A stretch of DNA of 53,223 nucleotides from a virus. Below the pieces are notes generated by a model. The model searched no databases. It was not told the origin of the DNA and worked only from the letters and a program-made list of their open reading frames with translations. Positions 184 to 29,868 of the stretch are shown here, piece after piece; within the stretch, counting starts at the first letter, position 1, and every line of letters starts with the position of its first letter. Made by a program: the position numbers and the translations under genes. The DNA lies in the IMG/VR virus record IMGVR_UViG_3300048999_000018, positions 1-53,223 of that record. One strand, given 5' to 3'.

Positions 184-453
184 CTAGGCTGACAGTCCGT
201 CAGTCGTCATGAGTGACGATGGATCAGCGATCTTTCGATAAACACCGAGAACGTTCTCACTCACGATCTCATCGATTGCTTGAAGACGAGCAAGCTCCTG
301 ATCAGCTTCTGATAGTTCATCAGATGTCTTGATCACTCTGGCAAGGAAGGCACTGGTGTTGTAGCCGGCGGCCATGTCCCATGCGTACCACTCATCGAAC
401 TTGGTGAATGGATTGAATGGATTGTCCACTGTTGTGAGCATGTAGTCAGCCAT
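184..453 (-). CDS. Conserved phage protein, unknown function
   Basis: 89 residues. It opens with a DNPFNPFTKFDEWYAWD block followed by a helical, acidic body with GYNTSAFLARV; I recognise this pattern from small proteins of many phages of Gram-positive hosts, with no known activity. The start overlaps the stop of the RNA polymerase gene by 8 nt, so translation is probably coupled, and it is the last gene of that operon. A second in-frame ATG at codon 5 is possible. Confidence 0.8.
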   Translation of the reverse strand: MADYMLTTVDNPFNPFTKFDEWYAWDMAAGYNTSAFLARVIKTSDELSEADQELARLQAIDEIVSENVLGVYRKIADPSSLMTTDGLSA

Positions 454-3085
454 TCTCAGTCACCGCACTAAGGCTGCGCTTCAGAGTACTTACTGACACA
501 CCGAGAGCGTCTGCTACTTCAGCTGGGGTGTATCCAGACTGCAGCATGAGCACAGCTCTGTTCTTCTTGGTTGAGGTCATGAGGAGCTTGATCTTGGGTG
601 TGGCCAGCTGCTTGACTTGGTCAAGATCCGAATTGCTCAGGATCTGATTCAGTTTGTTGCTGCTGATTGCACCTGCCTGAATGGCAGCCCATTCTTGCTC
701 ACTGATCTCTATACGCTGCTTCTTGGCGCCTGTTCTGATTCGTGCCTGAGCCAGAGCTTGAGCTTTCAGTTTCTTAATCTCAGAAGCTTCCATATCTGGG
801 TTGGCCTTGGTCTTCTGGTCTACCATGGCGTTTGCCAGGATCTGGGCTTGTCTTTCGAGGGGGCTGTTCCTGAGAGCCAGGTTTAGATTGGCGTCAAGAG
901 TTTTCACTTCCTTGGCATAAGCGAGCTTAGCCGAAGGAGAGTAAGGAATGGGTTTGGTAGAAGCCGCTTCCTTACGTGCTGAGTTAGCCAAGGCCTTCAG
1001 CTTGTTCGAGTGGTCGGCATAGACCTTCTCAATGGGCGTACCAGAAGACAGGCTGTGTGCATTGTCGACGTTGCCCAGCTTTGTCACTTCAATGGTCTTA
1101 GTGACGAGCTTGCCGTGCTTGTCGACGAAGGTCTCGCCTGTGTTCTCGAATACCTTCTTCCCTGTCGCTAGATCGATGGGCCCACCGTTTGCTTTGGATC
1201 GGGGCTTACGATCAGGGATCCTGATTGTCGACGAGATGCCGGCATTCGAGATCAACGTGTTGGCGCCTGCTGTCTTTCCGCCTTGATACTTGGCTTTCAG
1301 AGCAGAGATGCCATTGTCGATGGCCGATTGCTTATAGTTCAGGTTATGCTTCTCAGCATCGATCACAACCATGGAGTGCCGAACTGCTGCAGCAAGCTCG
1401 GTCGTTGACGCTCCCTTAATGGTCATGTCGGTGATGAGATTGGAGACTTTGCCCATCTCCACTTGCTTCGTTTTGGGAGACATCCTCGGCATGCCATCGT
1501 AATGCGGGTAAGCACGCTGAGGGTCGAATCCCTTTAGCCCCTCAAGGGCAGGAGCGGTCTTTACACGGCCGCTATTGTTCGGGATGACCAGAACTGTGTC
1601 GCCGTCAAAGTCGGCCCCTGAGAGGCGTTCTGCGACCTTGCTGTGGATGCCAATGGCGTCCTTAGCATTACCCAGAAGTTTCTTCGCTTCTGGATGACGA
1701 TTGTTGACCGTAAGCTCAGGAATCTCGAAGATACCTCCATGAGGGTAGCGAACCAGAACAACGCGATCACCATCGCGATAGTTGGGCGCATATACCTCAC
1801 CCTCCTTCATGGAGTTGATTGGAAGTATGACGTGAGACCCTTGACGAGGAAGAGCCGCAGCCTTTAGGTGTACAGCCGCAGAGTCCACGTCATCGGCGTA
1901 CGAGTCGAGCAGACGCTTCTTTACTACTGGGTTCGTTAGAGACCTGATTTCGTCAAGCTCACGACTCTTGCGTTCGAACGTCATATCGAGCTGAGACTTG
2001 GCCAAAGCCGGACTCTGCTTCGACAGCATCTGAGAAGAAAGGCTCTTAGACCATTTCTCCCATGCGCCTTCTTCATTGACGATGTTCATGACGCCATGCT
2101 GCCGATCAATGAACGCACCGAAAGGGTTTTCTGGATCGCTCGATACCTCTTTCATGGCATCGAGTTTGTTTCCTGTATTGCTCTTGTTGGTGTTGAAGAC
2201 GAGATCCACGCCAGGAGGAAGGTCGTCTCGGTACATGGCCATACCCTTGAGATAGTGCGTACCGTCCACCGCGATACGTACTTGAGCATAACGGGATTCC
2301 CCGAGAGAAATGTCGTCTACCCCAGGACGAACATAGATAACGCCGTCAGCGTCCGCTCCGCCCTGTTCCGCATACCTTACAGATACACGCTTGGAGCTGA
2401 TCGGGGTCGGAGGCTTGATGTCGTTGTAGGAACGTCCACCGTCGTCCGAGAAGTTGGTGATCTGTTGGATCTTGTCTCGGTTCCGGTACAGCTCTTTGTA
2501 CTCTGTACCGGGAGCAGACAGAACCTTAACCGTGGTCTGATGACGCGTGCCAAGCTGTTCGATCTTGACGTAATCAACCTTATAGCCGTCTTCTTGAAGC
2601 TTGGCCACAGCGATTTTCAGTTTGTCATTGCTGATTCCGAGGTGACGCTCTACGCCAGCGCCGATATCGATATAGCTCTTTTGGGCGACCTGATCCCTGA
2701 GCATGTTCGACGTCGTTTCAAGAACGTCGGCTTTGTCCTTTGCTCCGTCGGCGAGGAGAGCACGAACTGAAGATTCGTTGACTCCCATTTGCTTGCCGAT
2801 GGCAACGTTGGAATAGCCCTTGTCCTTAAGGCGCTGAGCCATTCCAATGTCGGCTTGCTTCTCTGCAGTCTTGGCAATTGACTTGACGGCTCGAAGCTGA
2901 GTGGTCGTGATTCCGAAACCACGAGCAATTTCCGTCTCGCTCATGCCCTTGCTGTGAAGGTCGTCGACAGTGCTGAGGAACGTGCGGTTACGCTCGCTCT
3001 GGGTCTCGCCACTTCCCCAAGGATACCTTCCGGACTTCCGAAGGATTCCGTAGTGCGCGAGATAGTCGTCTTCCTTTACGATCAC
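446..3085 (-). CDS. YonO-like single-subunit DNA-dependent RNA polymerase
   Basis: 879 residues. The catalytic signature is LSGADFDGDTVLVIP (residues 488-502): DFDGD at 492-496 is the Mg-binding loop of the double-psi beta-barrel of RNA polymerase beta' and of the single-chain YonO and crAss-like phage enzymes. It is preceded by RDGDRVVLVRYPHG (438-450), also typical. The N-terminus has HYGILRKSGRYPWGSG (11-26), a short motif seen on many phage proteins, then two helix-turn-helix-like segments (about 41-70 and 78-112); another HTH (TPAEVADALGVSVSTLKRSL) closes the protein. GTG start with strong site CAGGAGG; its first codon overlaps the upstream nuclease stop. It would transcribe phage genes in the host cytoplasm, perhaps from the repeated promoter cassettes; that link is inference. 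Confidence 0.82.
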   Translation of the reverse strand: MIVKEDDYLAHYGILRKSGRYPWGSGETQSERNRTFLSTVDDLHSKGMSETEIARGFGITTTQLRAVKSIAKTAEKQADIGMAQRLKDKGYSNVAIGKQMGVNESSVRALLADGAKDKADVLETTSNMLRDQVAQKSYIDIGAGVERHLGISNDKLKIAVAKLQEDGYKVDYVKIEQLGTRHQTTVKVLSAPGTEYKELYRNRDKIQQITNFSDDGGRSYNDIKPPTPISSKRVSVRYAEQGGADADGVIYVRPGVDDISLGESRYAQVRIAVDGTHYLKGMAMYRDDLPPGVDLVFNTNKSNTGNKLDAMKEVSSDPENPFGAFIDRQHGVMNIVNEEGAWEKWSKSLSSQMLSKQSPALAKSQLDMTFERKSRELDEIRSLTNPVVKKRLLDSYADDVDSAAVHLKAAALPRQGSHVILPINSMKEGEVYAPNYRDGDRVVLVRYPHGGIFEIPELTVNNRHPEAKKLLGNAKDAIGIHSKVAERLSGADFDGDTVLVIPNNSGRVKTAPALEGLKGFDPQRAYPHYDGMPRMSPKTKQVEMGKVSNLITDMTIKGASTTELAAAVRHSMVVIDAEKHNLNYKQSAIDNGISALKAKYQGGKTAGANTLISNAGISSTIRIPDRKPRSKANGGPIDLATGKKVFENTGETFVDKHGKLVTKTIEVTKLGNVDNAHSLSSGTPIEKVYADHSNKLKALANSARKEAASTKPIPYSPSAKLAYAKEVKTLDANLNLALRNSPLERQAQILANAMVDQKTKANPDMEASEIKKLKAQALAQARIRTGAKKQRIEISEQEWAAIQAGAISSNKLNQILSNSDLDQVKQLATPKIKLLMTSTKKNRAVLMLQSGYTPAEVADALGVSVSTLKRSLSAVTENG

Positions 3086-3642
3086 GCCAGAGCCTCCTGT
3101 CTCAATTCTTCGATCCGCTTGTCAGAAGTGATGATCTTATCCATGATGTGAACGATCATGTCTGGGTCTGGATTGACGATGTCGACATCATCGCTCTGAT
3201 ATATACGCAACTCTATCTCGATCTGATGCGGCCTTTGGTGGTATTCGAGACAGAACAACGCAGTGTAGATGTAGAGCTGGTTCATGGACGATTTGACGAT
3301 ACCACTTTTGAAATCGTGGATTCGAAGAAACTTGTTACGGAAAGAGATCGCGTCTGTGGTCCCGTAACAATTATACGAGTAAAACAGAACTTGCTCAGGC
3401 GTCATCCCATACACGATGGCGTCGTTCACGTAGAGACTTAGCGTCGACCCATTGTCTGCTTGCAAGATTTTGAGTCGGATGGCTTCGTGAGCGAACGCGT
3501 GAAGTTCTGTTCCACGCTGGGCAGCCATAGCAGTCAAGAAACGAGAGTCCAGCTTCTCGTCGCTATAGTTGATCCAGTGGTAGTTGCTCGCGCTAAGAAA
3601 CGCGTGGGTGTTGGAGAGCTTCAAATGTTCGTTGAAGATCAT
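3082..3642 (-). CDS. PD-(D/E)xK nuclease, Cas4/RecB-like
   Basis: 186 residues. The core pattern GTTDAISF...LRIHDFKSG gives the D and D-x-K of the PD-(D/E)xK superfamily, with an N-terminal RGTELHAFAHEAIR helix resembling the RecB/Cas4 type, followed by YIYTALFCLEY (a QxxxY-like helix). I do not see a four-cysteine iron-sulfur cluster, so it is not a canonical Cas4. It lies between another small nuclease and the RNA polymerase (ATGA-type overlap with the latter), suggesting DNA processing during replication or recombination. Confidence 0.75.
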   Translation of the reverse strand: MIFNEHLKLSNTHAFLSASNYHWINYSDEKLDSRFLTAMAAQRGTELHAFAHEAIRLKILQADNGSTLSLYVNDAIVYGMTPEQVLFYSYNCYGTTDAISFRNKFLRIHDFKSGIVKSSMNQLYIYTALFCLEYHQRPHQIEIELRIYQSDDVDIVNPDPDMIVHIMDKIITSDKRIEELRQEALA

Positions 3643-3904
3643 CGAGTACTGCCTCTTGGTTCGAAGGATAGATAAACGCCGCGAAAGACATCTCGTTCAG
3701 CTTATGGACGTAGTAGTCTTGGTTTGGTTGAACGGAGGATTTCGCGCCGGCCTTAACTTCGAGCATCGCCCATCGGTCGTTGTAGAGAATCGTGAGGTCG
3801 GGGATTCCCTGCAAGTAGTCCGAATCGTTCTTCAGGATCACACAGCCTGGGAACAAGCGACGGAGCTCTTTGATGAGACGCGCTTGATAATTCCGCTCTA
3901 GCAT
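3593..3904 (-). CDS. VRR-NUC domain endonuclease
   Basis: 103 residues, the usual size for stand-alone phage VRR-NUC proteins. The motif GIPDLTILYNDRWAMLEVKAG splits into D (in GIPDL) and E-x-K (in LEVKAG), the catalytic residues of this Holliday-junction-resolvase-like fold. First gene of the leftward operon 3904-184, with site AAAGGA before the ATG and a TATAAT box about 50 nt upstream. Its 3' end overlaps the next nuclease by 50 nt. Likely trims or resolves branched phage DNA. Confidence 0.82.
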   Translation of the reverse strand: MLERNYQARLIKELRRLFPGCVILKNDSDYLQGIPDLTILYNDRWAMLEVKAGAKSSVQPNQDYYVHKLNEMSFAAFIYPSNQEAVLDDLQRTFEALQHPRVS

Positions 3905-3949: not shown

Positions 3950-3985
3950 TTCTATTATAAGCAATGTATACGACGCGACTTGGTA
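3950..3985 (-). promoter_or_regulatory. Probable promoter of the nuclease/RNA polymerase operon
   Basis: On the minus strand a perfect TATAAT lies at 3954-3959, about 50 nt before the first ATG of the operon. No clear TTGACA is seen; instead one copy of the motif AAAAGAGATACCAAGT (3978-3993) occupies the -35 region, so an activator or repressor may bind there. Confidence 0.5.
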
Positions 3986-21032: not shown

Positions 21033-21964
21033 CACTCTTCTCCGTTCCCAAGCAAGTCGTAGACGATGCCGTCGACGTTGAAGTCCAAAATGGTAGACTT
21101 CTCTGCGCCGTTGACGAACTGCTGACCCATGTAACCATTGCGCTTGCCGTTGAGAACGCCGAAGTCAATGACGCTGTCTCCGCCACGAGGATTGTCACGA
21201 ACCCATCCGACGATAGCGCCGGCCTTGGTACGAGACAGACCCAGTGCGTCGTAGACCTCGTTCAGGAACACGTGGCCTCGACCGTTGAGCAGATCGTTCA
21301 TGTACATCTGCTGAGACCGGATGAACATGGAGTTGTACGAGGGTTCCGGAGACCAGTTGTCAGAAGCGCCCTTCTCGAAGATCCGAGCGTAGATCGAGGG
21401 GAACTGCTTCTTGTCGAGTTCACGAACAGTCTTGACCGCGATACCCTCATCGGTCTCGACGGCGATTTCCTTCTCGACTACGCCGAAGCGGAACTCCTGG
21501 TCCTTGTCCTCGCCGTACTCCTTGACGACACGTGCTCGGTAGTCCTTGAAGCCCTTCTCCACTGCAGCGTAAGCCGCGGTTAGAGCAGCATTCCGACGAG
21601 TCAGGATGACGTGAGATCCGGTCAGGCAGCCGACAGAGACGACACCGACAATGAACGCCGGCGCGTAGAGCTGAGCGATCTTCGACGCAGTCTTCACACG
21701 AACGAGAAGACGGTCCTTCTTGCTGTCCTCGTCAGTGTAGTCCTCGCGCTCAAGATTCTCGGCGGCCTTGATCTTGTTGTTATCTTCGTCGGCCTCCTTC
21801 AGAACCTGATCCATCTTGAGAGTTGCGTGGCTTGCGAGTACCACCGTGGCGACGAAGCCCACAGCTCCGACCCCGAATAGCAGCACCGGAGAGTGCTTCT
21901 GCGTGATCAGGACCTGTCGACCCACCTTGCTGGTGATCGAGTTCCTGAGAGCCTTGACGTTCAA
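21032..21964 (-). CDS. DUF6353-type membrane protein
   Basis: 310 residues with two membrane segments (PVLLFGVGAVGFVATVVLAS; YAPAFIVGVVSVGCLTGSHV) separated by a charged loop, then VILTRRNAALTAAYAAVEKG and a soluble C-terminal domain. This matches the phage DUF6353 arrangement. TTG start at 21964 chosen because TTGA overlaps the upstream stop and AAGGAA precedes it. Function unknown; a paralogue lies at 24585-25364. Confidence 0.7.
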   Translation of the reverse strand: MNVKALRNSITSKVGRQVLITQKHSPVLLFGVGAVGFVATVVLASHATLKMDQVLKEADEDNNKIKAAENLEREDYTDEDSKKDRLLVRVKTASKIAQLYAPAFIVGVVSVGCLTGSHVILTRRNAALTAAYAAVEKGFKDYRARVVKEYGEDKDQEFRFGVVEKEIAVETDEGIAVKTVRELDKKQFPSIYARIFEKGASDNWSPEPSYNSMFIRSQQMYMNDLLNGRGHVFLNEVYDALGLSRTKAGAIVGWVRDNPRGGDSVIDFGVLNGKRNGYMGQQFVNGAEKSTILDFNVDGIVYDLLGNGEE

Positions 21965-22158
21965 GAGCTTTCCTTCCAAGAGTTTTCTTTCCTAACGGGA
22001 ATGCACGGGCAGTCGTCTTTTCCGCAGTTGTACCGAATGCCGCGGTAAATACATCCGCCGCGCTCTAGGTAGTCCTGGAAATCGAATCGATCGTAAAACT
22101 TGAGCAAGGCATCTCGGCTCATCACGCCTACGAAGACACCAACGAGGAACTTGAGCAA
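21961..22158 (-). CDS. Small membrane protein with cysteines
   Basis: 65 residues: short N-terminal hydrophobic segment (MLKFLVGVFVGVMS) and a cysteine-containing tail (GGCIYRGIRYNC; CPCIPV). TTG start with AGGAGAACG. Unknown function. Confidence 0.6.
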   Translation of the reverse strand: MLKFLVGVFVGVMSRDALLKFYDRFDFQDYLERGGCIYRGIRYNCGKDDCPCIPVRKENSWKESS

Positions 22159-23142: not shown

Positions 23143-23177
23143 TAGGGGTCTCATTATAGCCCCTGTTATTACTGCGA
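23143..23177 (-). promoter_or_regulatory. Promoter-like cassette, copy a
   Basis: Minus-strand order: TCGCA, an A-rich spacer with ACA and GG, TATAAT, then GAGACCCCTA, and 13 nt later the ATG. The stop codon of the upstream gene lies inside the element. One of eight near-identical copies. Confidence 0.75.
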
Positions 23178-23363
23178 GCCGTACTTGTCGAGGAACTGCT
23201 CTTTGGTCAAGATCGTAGAAGCCTTGTCGTCGATGATTCTCGGCTCCTTGACGTACGGGCGTTCCTTTAGCCAAGCAATCACTTCAACAGCAGAGCCCTC
23301 GTACAAATATCGCATGTGAGCATCTGCGATACCGAAGAGAGGAGGAAGACGCATATTCGTCAC
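23169..23363 (-). CDS. Small protein of the DRMKPxFxG family
   Basis: 64 residues. FGIADAHMRYLYEGSAVEVI then AWLKERPYV recalls the D.xMxPxFxG..xE..xWLxxxP pattern of the proteins at 7699 and 26487. GTG start overlaps the upstream stop as GTGA; an ATG three codons on is an alternative. Function unknown. Confidence 0.55.
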   Translation of the reverse strand: MTNMRLPPLFGIADAHMRYLYEGSAVEVIAWLKERPYVKEPRIIDDKASTILTKEQFLDKYGSQ

Positions 23364-23545
23364 CTATTCGGGTATCTTGGCCGGCGAACCTTACCACAAG
23401 GCTTGTTCAGGCATTTTCCTGTAAGCCGATGCGTCAAAAGACCATCTGGACGGTTTTTTGATTGGATTCTCGTCCAACCGTTCTCGGTTTTTACGTGCCA
23501 TTCGTTCATGCCGAACTCTCGTTTCTTACGATGGATGCAGGGCAC
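23360..23545 (-). CDS. Small basic protein
   Basis: 61 residues, rich in Arg and Lys (NGWTRIQSKNRPDG; CLNKPCGKVRRPRYPNR). GTG start at 23545 has CGGGGAAC before it; an ATG at 23509 is an alternative. Its basic character suggests nucleic acid contact, but no domain is recognised. Confidence 0.5.
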   Translation of the reverse strand: MPCIHRKKREFGMNEWHVKTENGWTRIQSKNRPDGLLTHRLTGKCLNKPCGKVRRPRYPNR

Positions 23546-23586
23546 ATGTTCCCCGAAAGGGGGAGTCGGCCTCGGCTGTCGTTTAA

Positions 23587-23649
23587 AATTAGCATCCGGA
23601 ATAAGATCCTGTGAGACCCCTCGGCGTGCGGGCAGGACCTTTGCTAATT
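23587..23649 (-). other. Structured intergenic RNA element
   Basis: AATTAGCA (23587-23594) pairs with TGCTAATT (23642-23649), enclosing a second stem GATCCTG/CAGGACC (about 23605-23611 and 23633-23639, one G-U). The loop carries TGAGACCCCT (23612-23621) in plus orientation, the same 10-mer as the promoter cassettes. It may be a terminator or control element. Confidence 0.45.
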
Positions 23650-23673
23650 CCCCACATCTTTTATCGGATGGTA

Positions 23674-24210
23674 CTAGGCGGCCTTATTCTTCCGCTGCAT
23701 GGCCGCGACGAGATGCGCCTTACTCATCTCCTTCGGGTCGGAGCCGGCGACGCGGGTGAACTGGTCATCCGTCATCTCCAGGAGAGCATCCATGGTGTAC
23801 TCCTTGGCGGCATCTCCTTCGGGCAACTCGTGATCAACGACCTTCTTGGCCATATCGGCAGGGATGATGCCTGTGATGAACTCGACGGCGCCGTCGGTCT
23901 GACTCACCAGGTCCATGAACAGTTCCGAGTACGCGTCGGACTGAAGGAACCCGTTGGTGATGTCTTCGGACTTGATGAAGCGCTTGCCGTCCTCGGACTT
24001 CTGACCCACGGACATTGATAGGATGCCCTTGAGAGCGGCGATGATCTTGCCGCCGTCCTCGGACTTGATCAGGTCCTGGAGATGCCCCGAAAGGCCTCCT
24101 GCGTGGCTGAGCTCCAACTCCACAAGCTCGGACTTGTTGAGGTTGAAGTAGAAGTCGTCAGTGACCGAATTACCTTCGAGGTCACTGTAGGTTATCGTTT
24201 TCTTGAGCAT
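23674..24210 (-). CDS. Conserved phage protein, unknown function
   Basis: 178 residues. DFYFNLNKSELVELELSHAG, GQKSEDGKRFIKS, AYSELFMDLVSQTDGAVEFI and GIIPADM form a pattern widespread in phages of Gram-positive hosts. Relatives are sometimes called tail assembly chaperones, but here the gene is far from the tail module, so I do not assign that role. ATG with AAAGGCACTAAC. Confidence 0.7.
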   Translation of the reverse strand: MLKKTITYSDLEGNSVTDDFYFNLNKSELVELELSHAGGLSGHLQDLIKSEDGGKIIAALKGILSMSVGQKSEDGKRFIKSEDITNGFLQSDAYSELFMDLVSQTDGAVEFITGIIPADMAKKVVDHELPEGDAAKEYTMDALLEMTDDQFTRVAGSDPKEMSKAHLVAAMQRKNKAA

Positions 24211-24253
24211 GTTAGTGCCTTTCGGGTAATTGCTCGCGAGTCCGAATTAGGCC

Positions 24254-24538
24254 TTAGACCTCTTCGATGGCCTCGGTCTCGGCGGTGTCCTCCACCAGCG
24301 AACGGCTTCGGACCACACGACCCACGGCGAGCATCGCAACCGCCGACGCCACGAAGACGAGGACCTTGCGGTTCTTCTTGACGAGAGCCTTCGCCTTCTG
24401 AACGACCGTCTGGGTGTCGTCGCTGACGACGATCACAGTCTTGCCGTCCTCGGCCACATCGTCGACGACGGTCACCTGACTGGGGACAGAGATCTTCTTC
24501 TCGTCAGCAGCGGTCACGGTCGGCTTGGAGCTGTTCAC
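24254..24538 (-). CDS. Single-pass membrane protein
   Basis: 94 residues: a polar N-terminal region, a membrane helix (VLVFVASAVAMLAVGRVV) after the basic KALVKKNRK, and an acidic tail. By the positive-inside rule the basic stretch before the helix suggests the N-terminus is cytoplasmic. GTG start with GAGAGGCACC. Confidence 0.6.
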   Translation of the reverse strand: MNSSKPTVTAADEKKISVPSQVTVVDDVAEDGKTVIVVSDDTQTVVQKAKALVKKNRKVLVFVASAVAMLAVGRVVRSRSLVEDTAETEAIEEV

Positions 24539-24584
24539 AGTTGGTGCCTCTCGGGCTCAGTTTTTGTGTTGTGCAGGTGGTTGA

Positions 24585-25364
24585 TCAGTGAAGCCGGCTG
24601 TAGTTCCTTACCGGCCTGGCGCTGAACGTGATGGAGATGCATGGACGTCCATCGTCGGAGAGAGTTGTCGAGTAATCGACCTTGAGCAATTCGTCCGTGT
24701 TCCAGCCAATCTCATCGGACTCATCCGTGCGAGCAAGTCCGATCAGGTCGTAGTAGTCAGTCAACGGTGCGTACGTGTTGTTGATGACCTGTTCGTTGAT
24801 GTCATTCACGGCCTTTCGAAGCGTTTCCATGTCGCTTTTGAAATATCGGCCCGTGAATGCATCGAAGCAGAGTACCTCGTGTGGCATGAGGATGATTTCC
24901 TGCTTCGTGCTGGGGGTCTTATCGACCTTTTCCTGCGCGAGCTCGTCTCGAACCGTCTGCTCCTTCTTTTCCCCGAACTTCGCGAGTACCTTCCCCTTGT
25001 ACTCTTCGTAAGCCTTTTCGGAGAGAGAATATGCGGAAGCCAAAGCCGCCGCGCGACGTGTTCCGATGTGATTCGCGCTGATGATCGCCGTAATCGTCAG
25101 AGCTGCACTTGCCGCCGCAGGTACGTATAGCTTCCAGACGAGTTCGGCCTTCTCCTTGAACGGGATGTCTTCGAATTCGTCTTCGGTGTGTCCCTCAAGG
25201 AACTGGTTGCGCTCAAGAGCCAGTATCTCGGCTGCCTTGAACGAGGCCTTCCCAGTGAGATATGCGGTAGTGATAGCGCCGGTAACACCGATTGCCGTCA
25301 GAATCGCAGGAGTGTTGTCGCCGGCGAGTTTCCCGGCACGCTTGGCTAGTATGCCAAGATTCAT
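24585..25364 (-). CDS. DUF6353-type membrane protein, second copy
   Basis: 259 residues. Two membrane segments (TPAILTAIGVTGAITTAYLT; YVPAAASAALTITAIISANH), the internal HIGTRRAAALASAYSLSEKA that parallels the RRNAALTAAYAAVEKG of the protein at 21032-21964, and a soluble domain with CFDAFTGRYFKSDMETL. Membrane protein of the phage DUF6353 family; role unknown. Confidence 0.72.
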   Translation of the reverse strand: MNLGILAKRAGKLAGDNTPAILTAIGVTGAITTAYLTGKASFKAAEILALERNQFLEGHTEDEFEDIPFKEKAELVWKLYVPAAASAALTITAIISANHIGTRRAAALASAYSLSEKAYEEYKGKVLAKFGEKKEQTVRDELAQEKVDKTPSTKQEIILMPHEVLCFDAFTGRYFKSDMETLRKAVNDINEQVINNTYAPLTDYYDLIGLARTDESDEIGWNTDELLKVDYSTTLSDDGRPCISITFSARPVRNYSRLH

Positions 25365-25400
25365 GGTTGAGTCCTGTCTTGTTACCGGCCGGCGAGTGGG

Positions 25401-25856
25401 TTACTTGGACATGTGGACGGTCGTGGAAACGCCCCTGATAGAGAACTGGAAGCTCAGGTCGCCGTAGTCGTAGAAGAACTTCTTAGTCTTCTCACTGGAG
25501 CCGTACAGACTGGCGTCAAGCAACTTCAGATCGCCGTAGGAAGTGGTTGTGAAAGGCTGCGAGGTCACCGCGTTGGTGTCGAACGTGCCTTCCCAGAACA
25601 GACCGGTTGTGTCCTCCATCGTCAGCGTGATCTCGATCTTGTTGTCCGAGATAGTCGCAGCCATGACGGCCTTCGGAAGACCACTCTGGACCTGATGGTA
25701 CTCACCCTGAAGACTCTTCGACGGAATCGAGATATTCGAGGCCGCGGAGGCAGAAGAAACACCATGTGGAGTTCCGAAGCCGTTCACCACGTCGTACAAC
25801 CCCACGAAAGAGGCCAGAACCGCGAACACGAGGATAAACTTCCTCGGAAAAGACAT
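25401..25856 (-). CDS. Secreted protein with signal peptide
   Basis: 151 residues. A basic start and hydrophobic core (KFILVFAVLASFVGLYDVV) ending around SSASAASN give a plausible signal peptide. The mature part is beta-rich (AATISDNKIEITLTMEDTTG; LFWEGTFD). It probably acts outside the membrane; function unknown. Site AAGGAG before the ATG; terminator hairpin of the upstream unit lies at 25895-25926. Confidence 0.68.
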   Translation of the reverse strand: MSFPRKFILVFAVLASFVGLYDVVNGFGTPHGVSSASAASNISIPSKSLQGEYHQVQSGLPKAVMAATISDNKIEITLTMEDTTGLFWEGTFDTNAVTSQPFTTTSYGDLKLLDASLYGSSEKTKKFFYDYGDLSFQFSIRGVSTTVHMSK

Positions 25857-25894
25857 GATGTACTCCTTGTTTGATTGTCAGAGTTGAAACGAAA

Positions 25895-25926
25895 AAACCA
25901 TAAGCCGGGTTAGGGTCTTATGGTTT
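25895..25926 (-). terminator. Terminator hairpin, conserved-loop type
   Basis: AAACCATAAG (25895-25904) pairs perfectly with CTTATGGTTT (25917-25926) around GGGTTAGGG-type sequence. It follows the stop of the 25951 gene on the minus strand and is followed by TTTTTTCG. Confidence 0.8.
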
Positions 25927-25950
25927 GTTGAGCGTCCTTGAGTTGGTGTA

Positions 25951-26145
25951 TCAGGCCTCGGGGGTCTCCTCGACGACCTTCTTGGTCTTCTTGGCCGCGA
26001 GGACCGCGACGACTCCGAGGGCGATGATGCCGGCGGTCACGGCAGCGAGCTGCTTGGTGTTCCGCTGGATCTTCGTCTTCAGGTCGGTGTTGGTCTCTTC
26101 GGTCACGACGATGTCGATAGTCTCGGGGGTTGCCTTCTGGGACAC
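25951..26145 (-). CDS. Single-pass membrane protein
   Basis: 64 residues: polar N-terminus, membrane helix (LAAVTAGIIALGVVAVLAA) and a lysine-rich then acidic tail. GTG start with AAAGGAAC, 13 nt after promoter cassette b; a strong terminator follows, so it is a one-gene transcription unit. Confidence 0.65.
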   Translation of the reverse strand: MSQKATPETIDIVVTEETNTDLKTKIQRNTKQLAAVTAGIIALGVVAVLAAKKTKKVVEETPEA

Positions 26146-26158
26146 GATGTTCCTTTCA

Positions 26159-26193
26159 TAGGGGTCTCATTATACCCCATGTATTTTCTGCGA
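26159..26193 (-). promoter_or_regulatory. Promoter-like cassette, copy b
   Basis: TCGCA, A-rich spacer ending TACATGGGG, TATAAT, GAGACCCCTA on the minus strand, directly before the gene starting at 26145. A terminator hairpin lies just upstream at 26202-26239. Confidence 0.75.
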
Positions 26194-26201
26194 ATCGAGA
26201 T

Positions 26202-26239
26202 AAAAACCTAAAGACCGGGTTAGGGTCTTGTTGGTTTTT
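26202..26239 (-). terminator. Terminator hairpin, conserved-loop type
   Basis: Nested stems AAAAACC/GGTTTTT (26202-26208, 26233-26239) and AAGACC/GGTCTT (26211-26216, 26224-26229). It ends the transcript of the gene at 26260-26436. Confidence 0.75.
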
Positions 26240-26259
26240 GGTATCCTTCTTGATTGATC

Positions 26260-26436
26260 TCAGTCTTCGTTGACGGTGTCTTCTTCGTTGAACAGGTACT
26301 TCAGGCCGTAGTAGACAGCAGCGGTGACGGCGATGGGCAGGACGATTTTCGTCAGCACCAGCTTCTTCACCAGCCGGCTGTTTTCAGCGGCGAGTTGTTC
26401 CTTGTTCATCTTCTGAATTTCGTTCCACGACTTCAT
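26260..26436 (-). CDS. Small membrane protein
   Basis: 58 residues: a polar, coiled-coil-like start (WNEIQKMNKEQLAAENSRLV), a membrane helix (LVLTKIVLPIAVTAAVYYGL) and an acidic tail. ATG with AAGGACATCCC, behind promoter cassette c and before a terminator. Unknown function. Confidence 0.65.
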   Translation of the reverse strand: MKSWNEIQKMNKEQLAAENSRLVKKLVLTKIVLPIAVTAAVYYGLKYLFNEEDTVNED

Positions 26437-26450
26437 GGGATGTCCTTAGA

Positions 26451-26485
26451 TAGGGGTCTCATTATAGCCCCTGTATTTCTTGCGA
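26451..26485 (-). promoter_or_regulatory. Promoter-like cassette, copy c
   Basis: TCGCA, A-rich spacer ending TACAGGGGC, TATAAT, GAGACCCCTA, upstream of the gene starting at 26436. It begins directly after the stop of the 26487 gene. Confidence 0.75.
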
Positions 26486-26486
26486 A

Positions 26487-26681
26487 TTACTGTTCCCAAC
26501 CGTCCATCCACTCGTCAATTGACATGGGAGCGTATTCGTCTGCCGGCCAAACGCTACAAGGGCTAACGGGATTAGCCATGATCCAATCAAGAATTTCGTG
26601 ATCGGTTCCCTTGAACAAGGGCTTCATTTTTCGGTCAAGAACTGTCCCGCATTTTCCATATTTATCGGCTCGTCTAACCAT
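26487..26681 (-). CDS. Small protein of the DRMKPxFxG family
   Basis: 64 residues: VLDRKMKPLFKGTDHEILDW then IMANPVSPC, closely matching VLDDRMKPVFNGTPEETEKW of the protein at 7699. ATG overlaps the NlpC/P60 stop (TGATG). Function unknown. Confidence 0.65.
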   Translation of the reverse strand: MVRRADKYGKCGTVLDRKMKPLFKGTDHEILDWIMANPVSPCSVWPADEYAPMSIDEWMDGWEQ

Positions 26682-27160
26682 CAGTATCTCCCGTATACCG
26701 CTGTCGAGCCACCCGTCGTGTACTCAGAAATCGGGGCGTTGATGACTACCTTGTAACCTCGGTAACTTCCGGTGTTGGCGTTGGTCATTACGGCCTTACC
26801 ACCGAAAATGCCTGTGAATATACCCACATGGTAAACATGGCCGCTGCGGTCTTTGATGAACACCAGATCACCGATTGCACGAGAACCAGCGCTTATGTGT
26901 TTGGACTTGTTGTACTGATCCTGCGCAGTGCGAGGCAAAGTCTTTCCGTGTGTCTTGTACGCCCACCACACAAGTCCAGAGCAGTCATAACCCTTGACGT
27001 AACCGCCCTCAGCACCGTACGTGTACTTCGCGCCCTTTTGACCGTGAGCACTTACCATGGCTGCGTTCCTGAGCGTTGCAGCATTTGCGTCTGGGATGGA
27101 AAGAAAGAATGTTCCGAATGCCAGACCAAATATGACTGCGAGCTTTATGGTGCTTTTCAT
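26681..27160 (-). CDS. Secreted NlpC/P60 peptidase
   Basis: 159 residues. Signal peptide: MKSTIK, hydrophobic core, likely cut after DANA (about residue 27). NlpC/P60 domain: GYDCSGLVWWAYK with catalytic Cys60, then GDLVFI and HVYHVGIFTG with His111. Such enzymes cut peptide bonds in cell-wall peptidoglycan. Placed outside the tail and endolysin modules and exported on its own, it might alter the host wall during infection, help lysis or block superinfection. Start 27160 is chosen for the signal peptide; the ribosome site is weak. Confidence 0.85.
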   Translation of the reverse strand: MKSTIKLAVIFGLAFGTFFLSIPDANAATLRNAAMVSAHGQKGAKYTYGAEGGYVKGYDCSGLVWWAYKTHGKTLPRTAQDQYNKSKHISAGSRAIGDLVFIKDRSGHVYHVGIFTGIFGGKAVMTNANTGSYRGYKVVINAPISEYTTGGSTAVYGRY

Positions 27161-27210
27161 GATACTACCCAATCGGTTGAAGGAGATATTACTGAAACAT
27201 GCCGATTCGC

Positions 27211-27336
27211 TCAGGGAATTTCTTTTGTGCTTGGTAGAACGACCGGCAGGCATATACTGAAGCCTTTTGTCCGGGAGGTATCAGCCTCCAATATCCCCCA
27301 CGCTTTTTCCACTTGCCACTTGTTCTTGGCGGGCAT
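27211..27336 (-). CDS. Possible tiny protein
   Basis: 41 residues (MPAKNKWQVEKAWGILEADT, then a hydrophobic SICLPVVLP). It fills the 190-bp gap between two genes and has GAGAGGATTGGG upstream. No family and no membrane segment of full length, so it is only a candidate. Confidence 0.35.
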   Translation of the reverse strand: MPAKNKWQVEKAWGILEADTSRTKGFSICLPVVLPSTKEIP

Positions 27337-27353
27337 GACTATGCCCAATCCTC

Positions 27354-27569
27354 TCAGAACGTATCTCGCTTCCACTCACTGAGCTTCGGCAAATGCCATG
27401 CGTGCAATTCGTCCGGAGTCATTTTGTCTAGAGCTTCCCCTTCTAGACAAGCCAACATTCCGTACACCATTACCCACAGTTTTGTGCCATCTTCAGATAC
27501 CCGATAGGAATCAGGCTTGACTGGGTGAGTTAGTGCAGTATAGGCGTCCAACCATTCTAGATATCTCAC
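27354..27569 (-). CDS. Small hypothetical protein
   Basis: 71 residues, mixed fold, with TKLWVMVYGMLACLEGEALD and MTPDELHAWHLPKLSEW. GTG start 6 nt after the upstream stop. No family recognised. Confidence 0.6.
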   Translation of the reverse strand: MRYLEWLDAYTALTHPVKPDSYRVSEDGTKLWVMVYGMLACLEGEALDKMTPDELHAWHLPKLSEWKRDTF

Positions 27570-27575
27570 GTTGTG

Positions 27576-27716
27576 TTACTTCCCCTCAGTCTCTTCCGCA
27601 ATTGTGTCAGCAATCGCTTCTGCTGTTTCCGGGTCATTGTCGAGAGCCGCAGCAACATCCTGAGGCGAGTTGATCTCGGTAATGCTTCCGTCCTGATTGA
27701 CCCACATCAAACCCAT
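27576..27716 (-). CDS. Tiny acidic protein
   Basis: 46 residues. MGLMWVNQDGSITEINSPQD then an acidic helix AEAIADTIAEETEGK. ATG with AGGAAACACA. The gap it fills has no other coding frame. Confidence 0.55.
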   Translation of the reverse strand: MGLMWVNQDGSITEINSPQDVAAALDNDPETAEAIADTIAEETEGK

Positions 27717-27784
27717 TGTGTTTCCTGCTTTCTTTGAAGAGTTTGGTGAAATTACTCCGCCGGGAATTTTTCAAGAATCGGTTA

Positions 27785-27973
27785 CTATCCCTTTTCATAC
27801 CTCTCGTTCATCTTGTTGAGAGATTCCTTGTAGTCTTTCTTGATTTCTTCGATGGAATCATGGTAGATCCTACGAGCTTCCGCCATGGTTTTTCTGTAAC
27901 TTCGATCGAGCACGAGAATATAGATCAGACCGCCGAGAAGCCAAACAGAAAGAACAACGATCGTGAGTAGCAT
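27785..27973 (-). CDS. Membrane-anchored coiled-coil protein
   Basis: 62 residues: N-terminal membrane helix (LLTIVVLSVWLLGGLIYILV) and a long charged helix (MAEARRIYHDSIEEIKKDYK onward). Site GGAGATCTAAC before the ATG. Topology resembles small scaffold or lysis-associated proteins, but nothing specific can be assigned. Confidence 0.62.
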   Translation of the reverse strand: MLLTIVVLSVWLLGGLIYILVLDRSYRKTMAEARRIYHDSIEEIKKDYKESLNKMNERYEKG

Positions 27974-27997
27974 AGTTAGATCTCCATTTCAAAAACA

Positions 27998-28020
27998 TAA
28001 AACCCGTGTTAAGGGCTTTA
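27998..28020 (-). terminator. Terminator hairpin, conserved-loop type
   Basis: TAAAACCC (27998-28005) pairs with GGGCTTTA (28013-28020) with one mismatch; followed on the minus strand by TATGTTTTTG. It follows the stop of the gene at 28045. Confidence 0.65.
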
Positions 28021-28044
28021 GAGGTTTTGTATGAAAACAACTTT

Positions 28045-28233
28045 CTAGTAAATCTGCCTTGCATCCCGAATTGTCTGCAGATCAGGATCCTCGAACAGAT
28101 CGGCCAATGCCTTCTGGGCACTGTTCGTGCTCATGTCTCTTGGCGAGAGAACGCGAATGATTCCAATAATGGCATCGATCAATCCGACCGTGATTCCTTC
28201 TTCGTCACGACAACTCTGAGTTTCCTCAGGCAT
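28045..28233 (-). CDS. Small hypothetical protein
   Basis: 62 residues: an aliphatic stretch (VGLIDAIIGIIRVLS) and a helical acidic tail. ATG with TAGGAGATCAC behind promoter cassette d, terminator after it: a single-gene unit. Unknown function. Confidence 0.6.
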   Translation of the reverse strand: MPEETQSCRDEEGITVGLIDAIIGIIRVLSPRDMSTNSAQKALADLFEDPDLQTIRDARQIY

Positions 28234-28246
28234 GTGATCTCCTAGG

Positions 28247-28281
28247 TAGGGGTCTCATTATATGCCGTGTTTTTTCTGCGA
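28247..28281 (-). promoter_or_regulatory. Promoter-like cassette, copy d
   Basis: TCGCA, GAAAAAACACGGCA, TATAAT, GAGACCCCTA on the minus strand; AGGAG and the ATG follow within 14 nt. Confidence 0.75.
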
Positions 28282-28287
28282 AGACGA

Positions 28288-28317
28288 AACTCAAAGCCCT
28301 TGTTAGGGCCCGGAGTT
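28288..28317 (-). terminator. Terminator hairpin, conserved-loop type
   Basis: Stem with outer AACTC/GAGTT (28288-28292, 28313-28317) and inner GCCC/GGGC around TTGTTA. It follows the stop of the gene at 28333. Confidence 0.65.
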
Positions 28318-28332
28318 GGTTGTGAGGGTTGT

Positions 28333-28572
28333 CTACTTGTTGTCGGCGCTCTTGGTCTTCTTGACGGCGATCTCACCCAGAATGTCAACGACCTTTATGG
28401 CAACGATGATTACACCGACCGTGATGGCAGTGCGCTTCAGAACGTCTTTAGCGATCTCAGTTACGAGTTCACCAGAGGCGGTTCCGATTCGCTCTTCCAT
28501 GGTGGCGGATGAATCTTTGTTTTCTTTGGGGGTCTTGACGAGTACGGGCTTGATAGCGTAGCGGTTAAACAC
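28333..28572 (-). CDS. Single-pass membrane protein
   Basis: 79 residues: polar N-terminal half (VLVKTPKENKDSSATMEERI), a membrane-like segment (TAITVGVIIVAIKVVDILG) and a basic tail. GTG start behind promoter cassette e. Unknown function. Confidence 0.62.
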   Translation of the reverse strand: MFNRYAIKPVLVKTPKENKDSSATMEERIGTASGELVTEIAKDVLKRTAITVGVIIVAIKVVDILGEIAVKKTKSADNK

Positions 28573-28586
28573 GGCGTTCCAATCTG

Positions 28587-28621
28587 TAGGGGTCTCATAA
28601 TAGGCCGTGTTTTTTCTGCGA
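28587..28621 (-). promoter_or_regulatory. Promoter-like cassette, copy e
   Basis: TCGCA, GAAAAAACACGGCC, TATTAT, GAGACCCCTA; identical to copy d outside two positions. It precedes the gene starting at 28572. Confidence 0.75.
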
Positions 28622-28655
28622 AGTTGTTAGAGATCACTCTCATTTTGACGAAACA

Positions 28656-28678
28656 TAAAGGCCGGGTTAGGGCCTTTA
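28656..28678 (-). terminator. Terminator hairpin, conserved-loop type
   Basis: Perfect 8-bp stem TAAAGGCC/GGCCTTTA with loop GGGTTAG. It ends the transcript of the tiny gene at 28691-28804 and lies before cassette e. Confidence 0.8.
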
Positions 28679-28690
28679 GAGGTTTCGAGA

Positions 28691-28804
28691 TTACTGCTTG
28701 AGTTTCCGGTCGAACACAGCGTCGGCGAGATCCATCCAGTCGTCGGTGTGCGTGTGGTGCTTCGCGATGGTGGATTGGATTACTCGAATCAGCTTCTTCA
28801 ACAT
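28691..28804 (-). CDS. Tiny protein with its own promoter and terminator
   Basis: 37 residues, beginning MLKKLIRVIQSTIAKHHTHT and ending DAVFDRKLKQ: an amphipathic, basic helix then an acidic one. It is too short for standard gene calling, but it sits precisely between promoter cassette f and a terminator hairpin, like its longer neighbours, which strongly supports it. Function unknown. Confidence 0.6.
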   Translation of the reverse strand: MLKKLIRVIQSTIAKHHTHTDDWMDLADAVFDRKLKQ

Positions 28805-28818
28805 GGAAGGGCCTTTCG

Positions 28819-28853
28819 TAGGGGTCTCACTATAATCCTTGTAATTCCTACGA
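28819..28853 (-). promoter_or_regulatory. Promoter-like cassette, copy f
   Basis: TCGTA, A/T-rich spacer, TATAGT, GAGACCCCTA: the most diverged of the eight but still clear. AAAGGCCC and the ATG at 28804 follow. Confidence 0.7.
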
Positions 28854-28865
28854 TTGGCCAAAACG

Positions 28866-28888
28866 TAAAGGCCGTGTTAGGGCCTTTA
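28866..28888 (-). terminator. Terminator hairpin, conserved-loop type
   Basis: Perfect stem TAAAGGCC/GGCCTTTA with loop GTGTTAG, followed by CGTTTTGG; follows the stop of the gene at 28903. Confidence 0.8.
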
Positions 28889-28902
28889 GAGGTTCTTGAG
28901 AT

Positions 28903-29133
28903 CTACTTCCTGTTGAAGTCGTCGACGAACAGTCCGACGCCGGGGTAGAAGTCGTACGTCCATCCCTCGTCCTTGGCCTTGCTGATGGCGCGTCCCATGT
29001 TGTCTCGGCCGTCCTTTAGGTCCTTTCGGTCCTTGGCGACGACAGCGAGAATGCCGATGGTGGCGACAGCAGTCACGAGTTCAGGAGCGTGAATGGTGAT
29101 GTACGACTTGACTTTGGCGATCTTCTTGTTCAC
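28903..29133 (-). CDS. Small membrane-associated protein
   Basis: 76 residues: a basic start, a hydrophobic helix (APELVTAVATIGILAVVA), a charged helix and YDFYPGVGLFVDDFNRK. GTG start with AAAGGAACCC behind cassette g. Single-gene unit with a terminator after it. Unknown function. Confidence 0.62.
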   Translation of the reverse strand: MNKKIAKVKSYITIHAPELVTAVATIGILAVVAKDRKDLKDGRDNMGRAISKAKDEGWTYDFYPGVGLFVDDFNRK

Positions 29134-29147
29134 GTGGGTTCCTTTCG

Positions 29148-29181
29148 TAGGGTCTCATTAAAAGCCATGTTTTTCTTGCGA
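29148..29181 (-). promoter_or_regulatory. Promoter-like cassette, copy g
   Basis: TCGCA, A-rich spacer ending ACATGGCT, TTTAAT, GAGACCC-TA (one C shorter than the others). It precedes the GTG start at 29133. Confidence 0.7.
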
Positions 29182-29195
29182 ATGCGAAAAAACAA

Positions 29196-29232
29196 AGGGC
29201 ATGTAAGAGTCGTTTAAACTCTCGCACGCCCT
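29196..29232 (-). terminator. Terminator hairpin
   Basis: Outer AGGGC/GCCCT (29196-29200, 29228-29232) and inner AGAGT/ACTCT stems, followed on the minus strand by TTTGTTTTTTCG. It ends the transcript of the 29268 gene. Its loop differs from the TTAGGG family. Confidence 0.7.
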
Positions 29233-29267
29233 CTGCTTTTCGATTTCCTGCTGTGGGTCTGTTTGTG

Positions 29268-29558
29268 TTACCTGGGCTTCAGAACGAAGCCGATTGCCTT
29301 CGAAGTCACGATATGGACTCGCTCGAAGTTCAAGATCATCAGGATACCGGCGAGGTTCCCTGCGACGACGGCCAACGTGTCCGGACTTACACGGCTCGGA
29401 GATTCGATCTCCTTGAGCTTGTAGAGCTTGGTCAGTTGGTCCGCCATCGCGGCGAATTCGGGGGTACCGCTGTTGGTCTCAGACATCTGAGTGAGAACCT
29501 TGGTGATGACTTCGTCGAGGTGAGTCGGCGATTCGATCTTGGTCTTCAGGGTGTACAA
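29268..29558 (-). CDS. Conserved small phage membrane-associated protein
   Basis: 96 residues. VSPDTLAVVAGNLAGILMIL then NFERVHIVTSKAIGFVLKPR is a pattern widespread in phages, with one hydrophobic segment and a conserved basic end. TTG at 29558 is chosen because AAGGAG lies 6 nt before it and a longer frame would run back into the promoter cassette. Function unknown. Confidence 0.7.
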   Translation of the reverse strand: MYTLKTKIESPTHLDEVITKVLTQMSETNSGTPEFAAMADQLTKLYKLKEIESPSRVSPDTLAVVAGNLAGILMILNFERVHIVTSKAIGFVLKPR

Positions 29559-29573
29559 AGCATACTCCTTACA

Positions 29574-29608
29574 TAGGGGTCTCACTATACCCTATGTATT
29601 ATATGCGA
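29574..29608 (-). promoter_or_regulatory. Promoter-like cassette, copy h
   Basis: TCGCA, spacer ending TACATAGGG, TATAGT, GAGACCCCTA; rightmost of the eight copies, before the TTG start at 29558. Confidence 0.75.
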
Positions 29609-29619
29609 CCCCGGAAAAA

Positions 29620-29868
29620 CTACTCCGGAACGATTGGAGCAGTCTCAGCGATCGATTTATGAGCCCACATCGAAGCTGCTTCCAGTTCCGTGAAGGCTAT
29701 AGTTTTGGCGCGACCCTCATTGGGGAGGACAATGTCCAAGTATTCAGCAAACTCGATGAACTTAAACCGAAGTTCCGCATGTTTCGGAAGTGTCGCATTA
29801 GAACCTTCGATAGTTCCCTTGTGGAAACCGAATCGGTTCTCAATTTCTTCTTTTCCAAGATCAGCCAT
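29620..29868 (-). CDS. Acb2-like protein, candidate anti-CBASS nucleotide sponge
   Basis: 82 residues. NRFGFHKG near the start, then RFKFIEFAEYLDIVLPNEGR and AFTELEAASMWAHKSIAE match the pattern of the small Acb2/Vs.4 helical hairpin family (RFxxHxP, lA..ld...P..REks.A.T.LEeA.mWANaaIA). Known members bind cyclic di- and trinucleotides made by host CBASS and block signalling. Length fits (usually 60-100). It follows the holin with ATG after AGGAGAACA. Sequestration by this protein is inferred. Confidence 0.68.
   Translation of the reverse strand: MADLGKEEIENRFGFHKGTIEGSNATLPKHAELRFKFIEFAEYLDIVLPNEGRAKTIAFTELEAASMWAHKSIAETAPIVPE

Follow-up and report, generated by a model that had tools for sequence, protein, structure and literature searches.

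Eight near-identical copies of a 35-nucleotide (nt) cassette with the consensus TCGCA-N6-ACA-N5-TATAAT-GAGACCCCTA lie on the minus strand of the IMG/VR virus record IMGVR_UViG_3300048999_000018, analyzed here over positions 1–53,223 (hereafter the window), and the cassette is probably the cognate promoter for a single-chain two-barrel RNA polymerase that the phage itself encodes at 446–3085. The case for this polymerase as the reader is built on the strict spacing of the element over 29 nt, maintained at 34–59% GC and across phyla, and on its confinement to enzyme-bearing genomes, together with a predicted start right after an AT-rich element, as in the TATG motif of phiKZ, and the precedent of motif and enzyme in phage P23-45. 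A sequence-only reading of the same DNA had guessed at sites for a phage-specific polymerase or activator, a guess supported by the RNA polymerase encoded in this genome and by a motif that follows it across hosts of differing GC content. The broader proposition, to which we lean with less assurance, is that the cassette represents the promoter code of a large, hitherto unassigned clade of single-chain two-barrel RNA polymerases in phages of Actinobacteria and Firmicutes: a strict 29-nt element, with RNA starting right after TATAAT, that would serve dozens of one-gene units and new families of structured RNAs, some of them tRNA-like, and would control the operon of a polymerase that may be virion-carried.

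Cassettes in the Phage Genome

The eight minus-strand copies were all present in the earlier reading, which had listed their 3′ ends; its total is nevertheless too low, as it missed a ninth, diverged copy at 3978–3950. The 14-nt distance between TCGCA and the hexamer that it described holds in 8/8 cassettes, whereas the uniform letters do not. The upstream box is TCGCA in seven copies and TCGTA (at 28853) in the remaining one, and the hexamer is TATAAT in four, TATAGT in two, TATTAT in one and TTTAAT in one, that is, four exact matches and four that are one base off; GAGACCCCTA is exact in 7/8, with GAGACCCTA at 29156 in the other. When each cassette was left out in turn and scored against a matrix built from the other seven, the scores ranged from 34.6 to 57.8 bits, against at most 10.6 for the best non-site on either strand; the same leave-one-out scoring of the window found no cassette on the plus strand, and a repeat search recovered the identical eight-copy family. 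The leader, from the predicted +1 to the start codon, measures 23–25 nt at all eight, bearing out the placement directly before small genes. The absence of a standard −35 element was likewise read correctly: none of the eight sites has a −35 at 16–18 nt among the sigma70-type matches (3 matches in 8 kb versus 5.3 in shuffles). An N4-type hairpin promoter was considered and rejected; an inverted repeat, AGGGG..CCCCT, spans the hexamer in some copies, but not in those of Gordonia and Rhodococcus.

The Ninth Copy and the Polymerase Operon

The ninth copy reads TCGCG-N6-ACA-N5-TATAAT-AGAA and lies 49 nt upstream of an endonuclease gene, which is followed by genes for an exonuclease and an 879-residue protein. 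The phrog_4291 profile matches residues 3–873 of the latter, i.e., its whole length, and residues 489–496 read SGADFDGD, containing the DxDGD catalytic motif; DFDGD is invariant in alignments of 27 and of 43 sequences, the other members of the larger set being 44–75% identical to the window protein. A first AlphaFold2 model, built from the 27 close sequences, had a predicted template modeling score (pTM) of 0.45 and gave weaker matches, although residues 415–512 in it align with double-psi barrels at a Z of about 9. The second model (mean predicted local distance difference test 79, pTM 0.61) was therefore used for fold comparison, and Foldseek searches of the PDB returned QDE-1 (E 4e-9), gp62 of P74, a Thermus phage related to P23-45 (E 2.3e-7), and also maize RDR2. 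Helix-turn-helix (HTH) matches occur close to both ends of the protein, the C-terminal one resembling sigma region 4. Because of the full-length profile match, the invariant DFDGD, the double-psi barrel and the fold matches, the protein belongs, as far as profiles and structural models can tell, to the YonO/QDE-1-like class of single-chain two-barrel RNA polymerases. The records list its homologue in Lactococcus phage 1706, orf75, among the virion structural proteins, and the polymerase may therefore be carried in the virion and injected along with the DNA, which we put forward by analogy as a lead.

Distribution of the Motif and the Polymerase

The search for the motif in related phages that the sequence-only reading had proposed was run, and the motif tracks the polymerase across hosts. 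A 44-nt motif query against named phage records, with motif and polymerase compared as per-host counts rather than record by record, matched 143 records (Gordonia 55, Streptomyces 54, Siphovirus 12, Arthrobacter 9, Rhodococcus 4, Microbacterium 3, Lactococcus 2, other 4); among the matches listed, three of the four others look like chance (E of at least 3). The polymerase was found in 250 records, including Arthrobacter 95, Gordonia 55, Streptomyces 54, Lactococcus 13, Siphovirus 12, Curtobacterium 7, Rhodococcus 4 and Microbacterium 4, so that the two counts are equal for Gordonia (55/55), Streptomyces (54/54), Siphovirus (12/12) and Rhodococcus (4/4). Where polymerase-bearing phages yield few or no matches, inspection by eye finds a diverged form with the same architecture upstream of small genes, as in the Arthrobacter phages Mudcat and CapnMurica, Curtobacterium phage Yotsuba (TTTAAT), the saliva phage D_HF5_2C (37% GC) and Lactococcus phage CHPC971 (34% GC), where TATAGT is followed by AGAAAG. 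The phages in which motif and polymerase coexist thus infect Gordonia, Streptomyces, Rhodococcus, Arthrobacter, Curtobacterium and Lactococcus, and Clostridia prophages have both as well. Weaker cassette copies lie near −900 of the polymerase in Pepy6, Pherobrine, Mudcat and CapnMurica; no copy upstream of the polymerase was seen in CHPC971, D_HF5_2C or 1706.

The association was followed in both directions in IMG/VR contigs. Starting from the motif, 35 contigs of at least 30 kb among 80 listed loci (39 further stretches stand outside this list) were each counted once, and the polymerase is present in 30 of them (28 strong matches, a weak one and a partial one where the contig ends). The other five lack the exonuclease (5/5), and their DNA polymerase is near the contig end in three and absent in two; these contigs therefore look cut off before the polymerase. 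Starting from the polymerase, the sample comprised 28 of the 30 contigs of at least 18 kb among 80 loci, the other two being already in the motif-contig set. The motif occurs in 25 of the 28, with 112 matches, 112/112 on the polymerase's strand; in the same contigs, the backwards pattern and the pattern with the spacer lengthened by one base match once each. As queries against viral contigs, the saliva-phage polymerase found no locus and the Lactococcus polymerase one. In a further contig, L227 (G054:20000-30000), all four cassettes carry AGTAAT in place of TATAAT, a coherent change that affects hexamer position 2, normally A; this position is often T in Clostridia copies (TTTTAT).

A genome scan for relatives of the polymerase, taken as the best 80 of 130, led mostly to Clostridia and Bacilli. 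In these prophages the motif takes the form TCGCR-A-rich-ACAtgccCTTTTATGAAG, with 121 matches on the polymerase strand against 29 on the opposite one (22 and 24 in reversed-sequence controls). At one strict threshold, 57 of the 79 prophage loci used (of 80) have a copy at 750–1150 nt upstream of the polymerase, as do 20 of the 74 IMG/VR loci used (of 80); in the window the distance is 868 nt. In several prophage loci, including L243:2224, L256:3629 and L267:2243, the promoter of the polymerase operon is immediately followed by a hairpin of about 45 nt and a T-run, which may be an attenuator or else a short RNA. A relaxed exact pattern applied to 14 host genomes (52.2 Mb) gave 15 matches in 10/14, and none in its backwards control. 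Eleven fall inside polymerase loci of about 23 kb, three elsewhere on those contigs, and the last lies 330 nt from a polymerase locus, if the contig is identical. To judge from the phage records, the IMG/VR contigs and the 14 host genomes, the motif is confined to genomes with the polymerase.

RNA Genes and the Probable Start Point

Some cassettes in related genomes precede RNA genes: Pepy6 has a tRNA-Ala there, Pherobrine and D_HF5_2C have RNAs that resemble tRNAs, and Qui, CapnMurica and contigs have structured RNAs of other kinds. Small structured RNAs with a cassette of their own, some of them tRNA-like and most with a T-run, were observed at L131:17734-18100, L132:23316-23670, L128:22893 and 29499-29750, L127:14376-14750 and 43021, L135:20053, L218:2545 and 3337, and L224:2738. 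Rfam searches matched only the Pepy6 tRNA in L127, L131 and L132, and nothing in the window, L128, L224 or L218.

In many of these RNA genes the bases right after TATAAT pair in a stem whose partner strand ends just before the T-run. Six folds in which base +1 is paired, chosen as clear cases, are those at L218:3362 (z −6.3), Pherobrine 22918 (z −3.9) and 29524 (z −3.1), L085 (z −3.9), Pepy6 43046 (z −6.0) and CapnMurica 23341 (z −2.9). A systematic count used stems with a T-rich tail in 561 non-redundant copies, with a control in which 5′ ends were dealt among copies; earlier versions had used shuffles that also broke T-runs, or no control. Observed stem starts exceed the control at −2 (25 versus 7.5), −1 (20 versus 6.2), 0 (19 versus 3.9), +1 (24 versus 7.5), +2 (16 versus 2.1), +3 (16 versus 1.9) and +4 (11 versus 1.1), are scarce at +5 (5 versus 1.2), +6 (7 versus 1.6) and +7 (6 versus 2.0), and show no excess at −4 (3 versus 5.2). 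Helices at offsets −3 to −1 may arise where AAT pairs with ATT in the tail of a terminator. Since the first base after TATAAT already takes part in RNA stems, transcription probably starts at that base, or within about two bases of it, and the RNA would contain GAGA; a sigma-A start, 6–8 nt past the hexamer, would leave GAGA out of the RNA. A start so placed is unsuited to sigma-A, in keeping with the earlier description of the cassette as unlike ordinary sigma70 promoters.

The bases after the hexamer vary with the kind of transcript. GAGACC is found in 334 of the 432 copies that have a Shine-Dalgarno sequence and start codon versus 59 of the 129 that lack them, whereas GAGAAG-type starts show the opposite distribution (19/432 versus 44/129). 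The promoter core would thus appear to end, in general, at GAGA, and CCCC(TA) to belong mostly to mRNA leaders, while the strongest alignment columns lie 1–25 bases upstream of the predicted start.

Small Genes and Terminators

The eight products behind the window cassettes are 37–96 residues long, and five of them have a 19-residue segment that averages at least 1.7 on the Kyte-Doolittle scale. Six of the eight genes end in a hairpin of one repeat family with the loop CTAAC (D2, D3), the other two hairpins having been found by eye. With cassettes 5′ and terminators 3′ of the small genes, the layout is a repeated one of promoter, one small gene and terminator (Table 1). The terminator loops across 25892–28894 read CTAAC[AC], and small genes of Qui and Pherobrine are again followed by similar loops; judged by its letters, the terminator looks as if it, like the promoter, were specialized. 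Elsewhere in the genome, phrog_2152 is represented by two proteins (21032–21979 and 24585–25364), and the intergenic region 23545–23674 holds a GGGGTCTC box together with a CCCCCTTTCGGGG hairpin, which may form a further structured RNA.

Table 1. Coordinates in the window of the cassettes, small genes, terminators and polymerase operon.
Feature	Position	Strand	Remarks
Cassette 1 (TCGCA..TATAGT, then GAGACCCCTA)	29574..29608	minus	predicted +1 at 29583
Cassette 2 (hexamer TTTAAT)	29148..29181	minus	predicted +1 at 29156
Cassette 3 (TCGTA, TATAGT)	28819..28853	minus	predicted +1 at 28828
Cassette 4 (TATTAT)	28587..28621	minus	predicted +1 at 28596
Cassette 5	28247..28281	minus	predicted +1 at 28256
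Cassette 6	26451..26485	minus	predicted +1 at 26460
Cassette 7	26159..26193	minus	predicted +1 at 26168
Cassette 8	23143..23177	minus	predicted +1 at 23152
Ninth, diverged cassette (TCGCG..ACA..TATAAT, then AGAA)	3950..3978	minus	upstream of polymerase operon, predicted +1 at 3953
VRR-Nuc-like endonuclease, first gene after ninth cassette	3593..3904	minus	phrog_93; VRR-Nuc is the name in relatives' records
Exonuclease	3082..3642	minus	phrog_3953
Predicted single-chain two-barrel RNA polymerase, 879 aa, proposed cassette reader	446..3085	minus	phrog_4291
Conserved small gene following polymerase	184..453	minus	phrog_4303
Small gene 1, 96 aa, TTG start	29268..29558	minus	phrog_5818, unknown function
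Small gene 2, 76 aa, hydrophobic segment	28903..29133	minus	
Small gene 3, 37 aa	28691..28804	minus	
Small gene 4, 79 aa, hydrophobic segment	28333..28572	minus	phrog_6618
Small gene 5, 62 aa, hydrophobic segment	28045..28233	minus	
Small gene 6, 58 aa, hydrophobic segment	26260..26436	minus	
Small gene 7, 64 aa, hydrophobic segment	25951..26145	minus	
Small gene 8, 80 aa	22887..23129	minus	phrog_7539
Hairpin terminator after gene 2, loop CTAACA	28854..28894	minus	repeat family D2
Hairpin terminator after gene 3	28644..28684	minus	repeat family D2
Hairpin terminator after gene 4	28280..28320	minus	repeat family D2
Hairpin terminator after gene 5	27986..28026	minus	repeat family D2
Hairpin terminator after gene 6	26197..26237	minus	repeat family D2
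Hairpin terminator after gene 7	25892..25930	minus	repeat family D3

Discussion

In the proposed model, the polymerase would recognize a core made up of TCGCA at −25 to −21, ACA at −14 to −12, a G near −10, TATAAT at −6 to −1 and GAGA at +1 to +4. From each of the eight window copies a short mRNA would arise that encodes a single small protein, often of membrane type; six of the eight units terminate at a hairpin of the common family, and some copies in relatives would start small structured RNAs instead. The ninth copy would feed the polymerase operon, generating positive feedback.

The most serious competing explanation, which we consider unlikely, is that TATAAT serves as a −10 element for the host polymerase with sigma-A, while a phage activator bound to TCGCA and ACA stands in for the −35, much as MotA and AsiA of phage T4 have the activator take over the −35 role for the host polymerase. 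TATAAT is an ideal sigma-A −10 and occurs in 375 of the 561 non-redundant copies, although the matches were partly selected on the hexamer; an activator might bind the upstream boxes, and the lineage has conserved proteins of unknown function that could supply the activator. Such an activator could have gone unrecognized, since 39 window proteins, of 81 listed open reading frames, were scanned for families. The announcements of the Gordonia phages Vardy and Conley also call the motif sigma70. This explanation is at odds with the RNA stems in relatives, which use 4–6 bases after TATAAT that would go untranscribed from a sigma-A start, with the lack of a −35 at 16–18 nt in all eight cassettes, and with a phage that encodes its own polymerase. 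Position 2 of the hexamer, where A is the key base for sigma-A, is moreover changed in all four copies of one phage and often in Clostridia (TTTTAT). A phage sigma factor or sigma-like protein that redirects the host core polymerase would also explain why the motif tracks the phage lineage and not the host, and the sigma region 4-like HTH of the 879-residue protein makes a sigma-like role conceivable; we regard it as improbable, given that this candidate has a complete two-barrel polymerase fold with the catalytic DFDGD, that the 39 proteins scanned include no other sigma-like protein, and that a sigma-type −10 reading requires a start several bases further downstream. Least credible of all is an element acting in RNA, as a processing site or translation leader behind an ordinary weak promoter. 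The conservation of GAGACCCCTA and the Shine-Dalgarno sequence in mRNA leaders speaks for it, but the strongest columns lie upstream of the predicted start, the identical box drives a tRNA and structured RNAs with different leaders, and a single added spacer base abolishes the matches.

Several observations weigh against promoter recognition by the two-barrel polymerase, beyond the sigma-A-like hexamer and the partial protein scan already mentioned. The lineage has other core genes in common (DNA polymerase is covered to at least 80% in 252 records, RNA polymerase in 249), so that co-occurrence does not single out the RNA polymerase and the link of the motif to this one protein is an inference. 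An hhalign comparison of the window protein profile with the single YonO sequence yielded no global match, aligning 20 columns with a probability of 4.4. Three of the 28 polymerase contigs (19.0, 25.4 and 28.9 kb) lack the motif, and the reversed controls at the loose prophage threshold gave 46 matches altogether. A stem test on bases +4 to +11 alone, which is confounded by the T-run, left 22 RNAs; of these, 8 have a Watson-Crick pair and 11 a G-U pair at the base that follows TATAAT. A test on prophage leaders is weak (18 versus 9.8).

The motif itself was already reported in Vardy and Conley, and what is new is therefore not the element but its identity; in the literature searched (open-licence papers only), no link of the motif to a polymerase, a start geometry, RNA genes or a span of hosts was found. 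Forrest et al. (2017), as far as the available text goes, left open which promoter YonO recognizes. For a clade of enzymes of broadly the same kind there is now a candidate promoter with sharp outlines, together with a prediction of the start base and hundreds of naturally occurring variants, so that the way in which minimal two-barrel polymerases recognize promoters becomes directly testable. If the proposed assignment is true, it overturns the sigma70 reading of two published phage announcements, supplies a small polymerase with its promoter as an orthogonal pair for use in actinobacteria, and points to uncatalogued phage RNAs and to small membrane proteins expressed singly.

Long conserved elements that run into the transcript are familiar from T7-type promoters, in which TATA is followed by GGGAGA. 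The cassette would share this extension into the transcript, whereas the enzyme has an unrelated fold. The closest published counterpart of the cassette is a motif of 50 bp or 43 bases, present five times and described as sigma70 in the Gordonia cluster DJ phages Vardy (PMC9671010) and Conley (PMC10868162), which resembles it in its mid-genome intergenic position, its TATAAT and its location before small, often membrane-type genes. By its letters this motif is almost certainly the window cassette in relatives, and Vardy (ON970622) is among the 143 motif records; the announcements differ in their sigma70 −10 label and, in the text available, draw no link to a polymerase, other hosts, a start point or RNA genes. 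Arrays of small membrane genes are described in the accessible portion of Klyczek 2017 (PMC5513430). YonO of Bacillus phage SPbeta, according to the available part of its report, is likewise a single-chain RNA polymerase with a catalytic aspartate triad that transcribes a set of phage genes, but it reads one late operon rather than many one-gene units, and its promoter sequence is left open there (PMC5467207). A by-eye candidate in the SPbeta yonK upstream region (PYONO) has the wrong spacing, the published start could not be placed on the record, and nothing is claimed for it. The late promoters of the phiKZ non-virion RNA polymerase, as described in the part of the source consulted, consist of a short TATG motif that overlaps the start at its G and have no −10/−35 layout, which is comparable to the (TA)AT followed by G seen here; that enzyme is multi-subunit and its promoters have weak flanking conservation, in contrast to the long, strictly spaced window cassette (PMC12809450). 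In Thermus phage P23-45, finally, gp96 (virion) and gp64 (non-virion) are single-chain two-barrel RNA polymerases that, in the portion of the paper available, co-occur with promoter motifs of their own, one described as AT-rich and one as GC-rich, in which they differ from the cassette; a special terminator motif is reported for gp96 (PMC10770324). The resemblance extends to the enzyme itself, gp62 of the related phage P74 being among the fold matches of the window polymerase.

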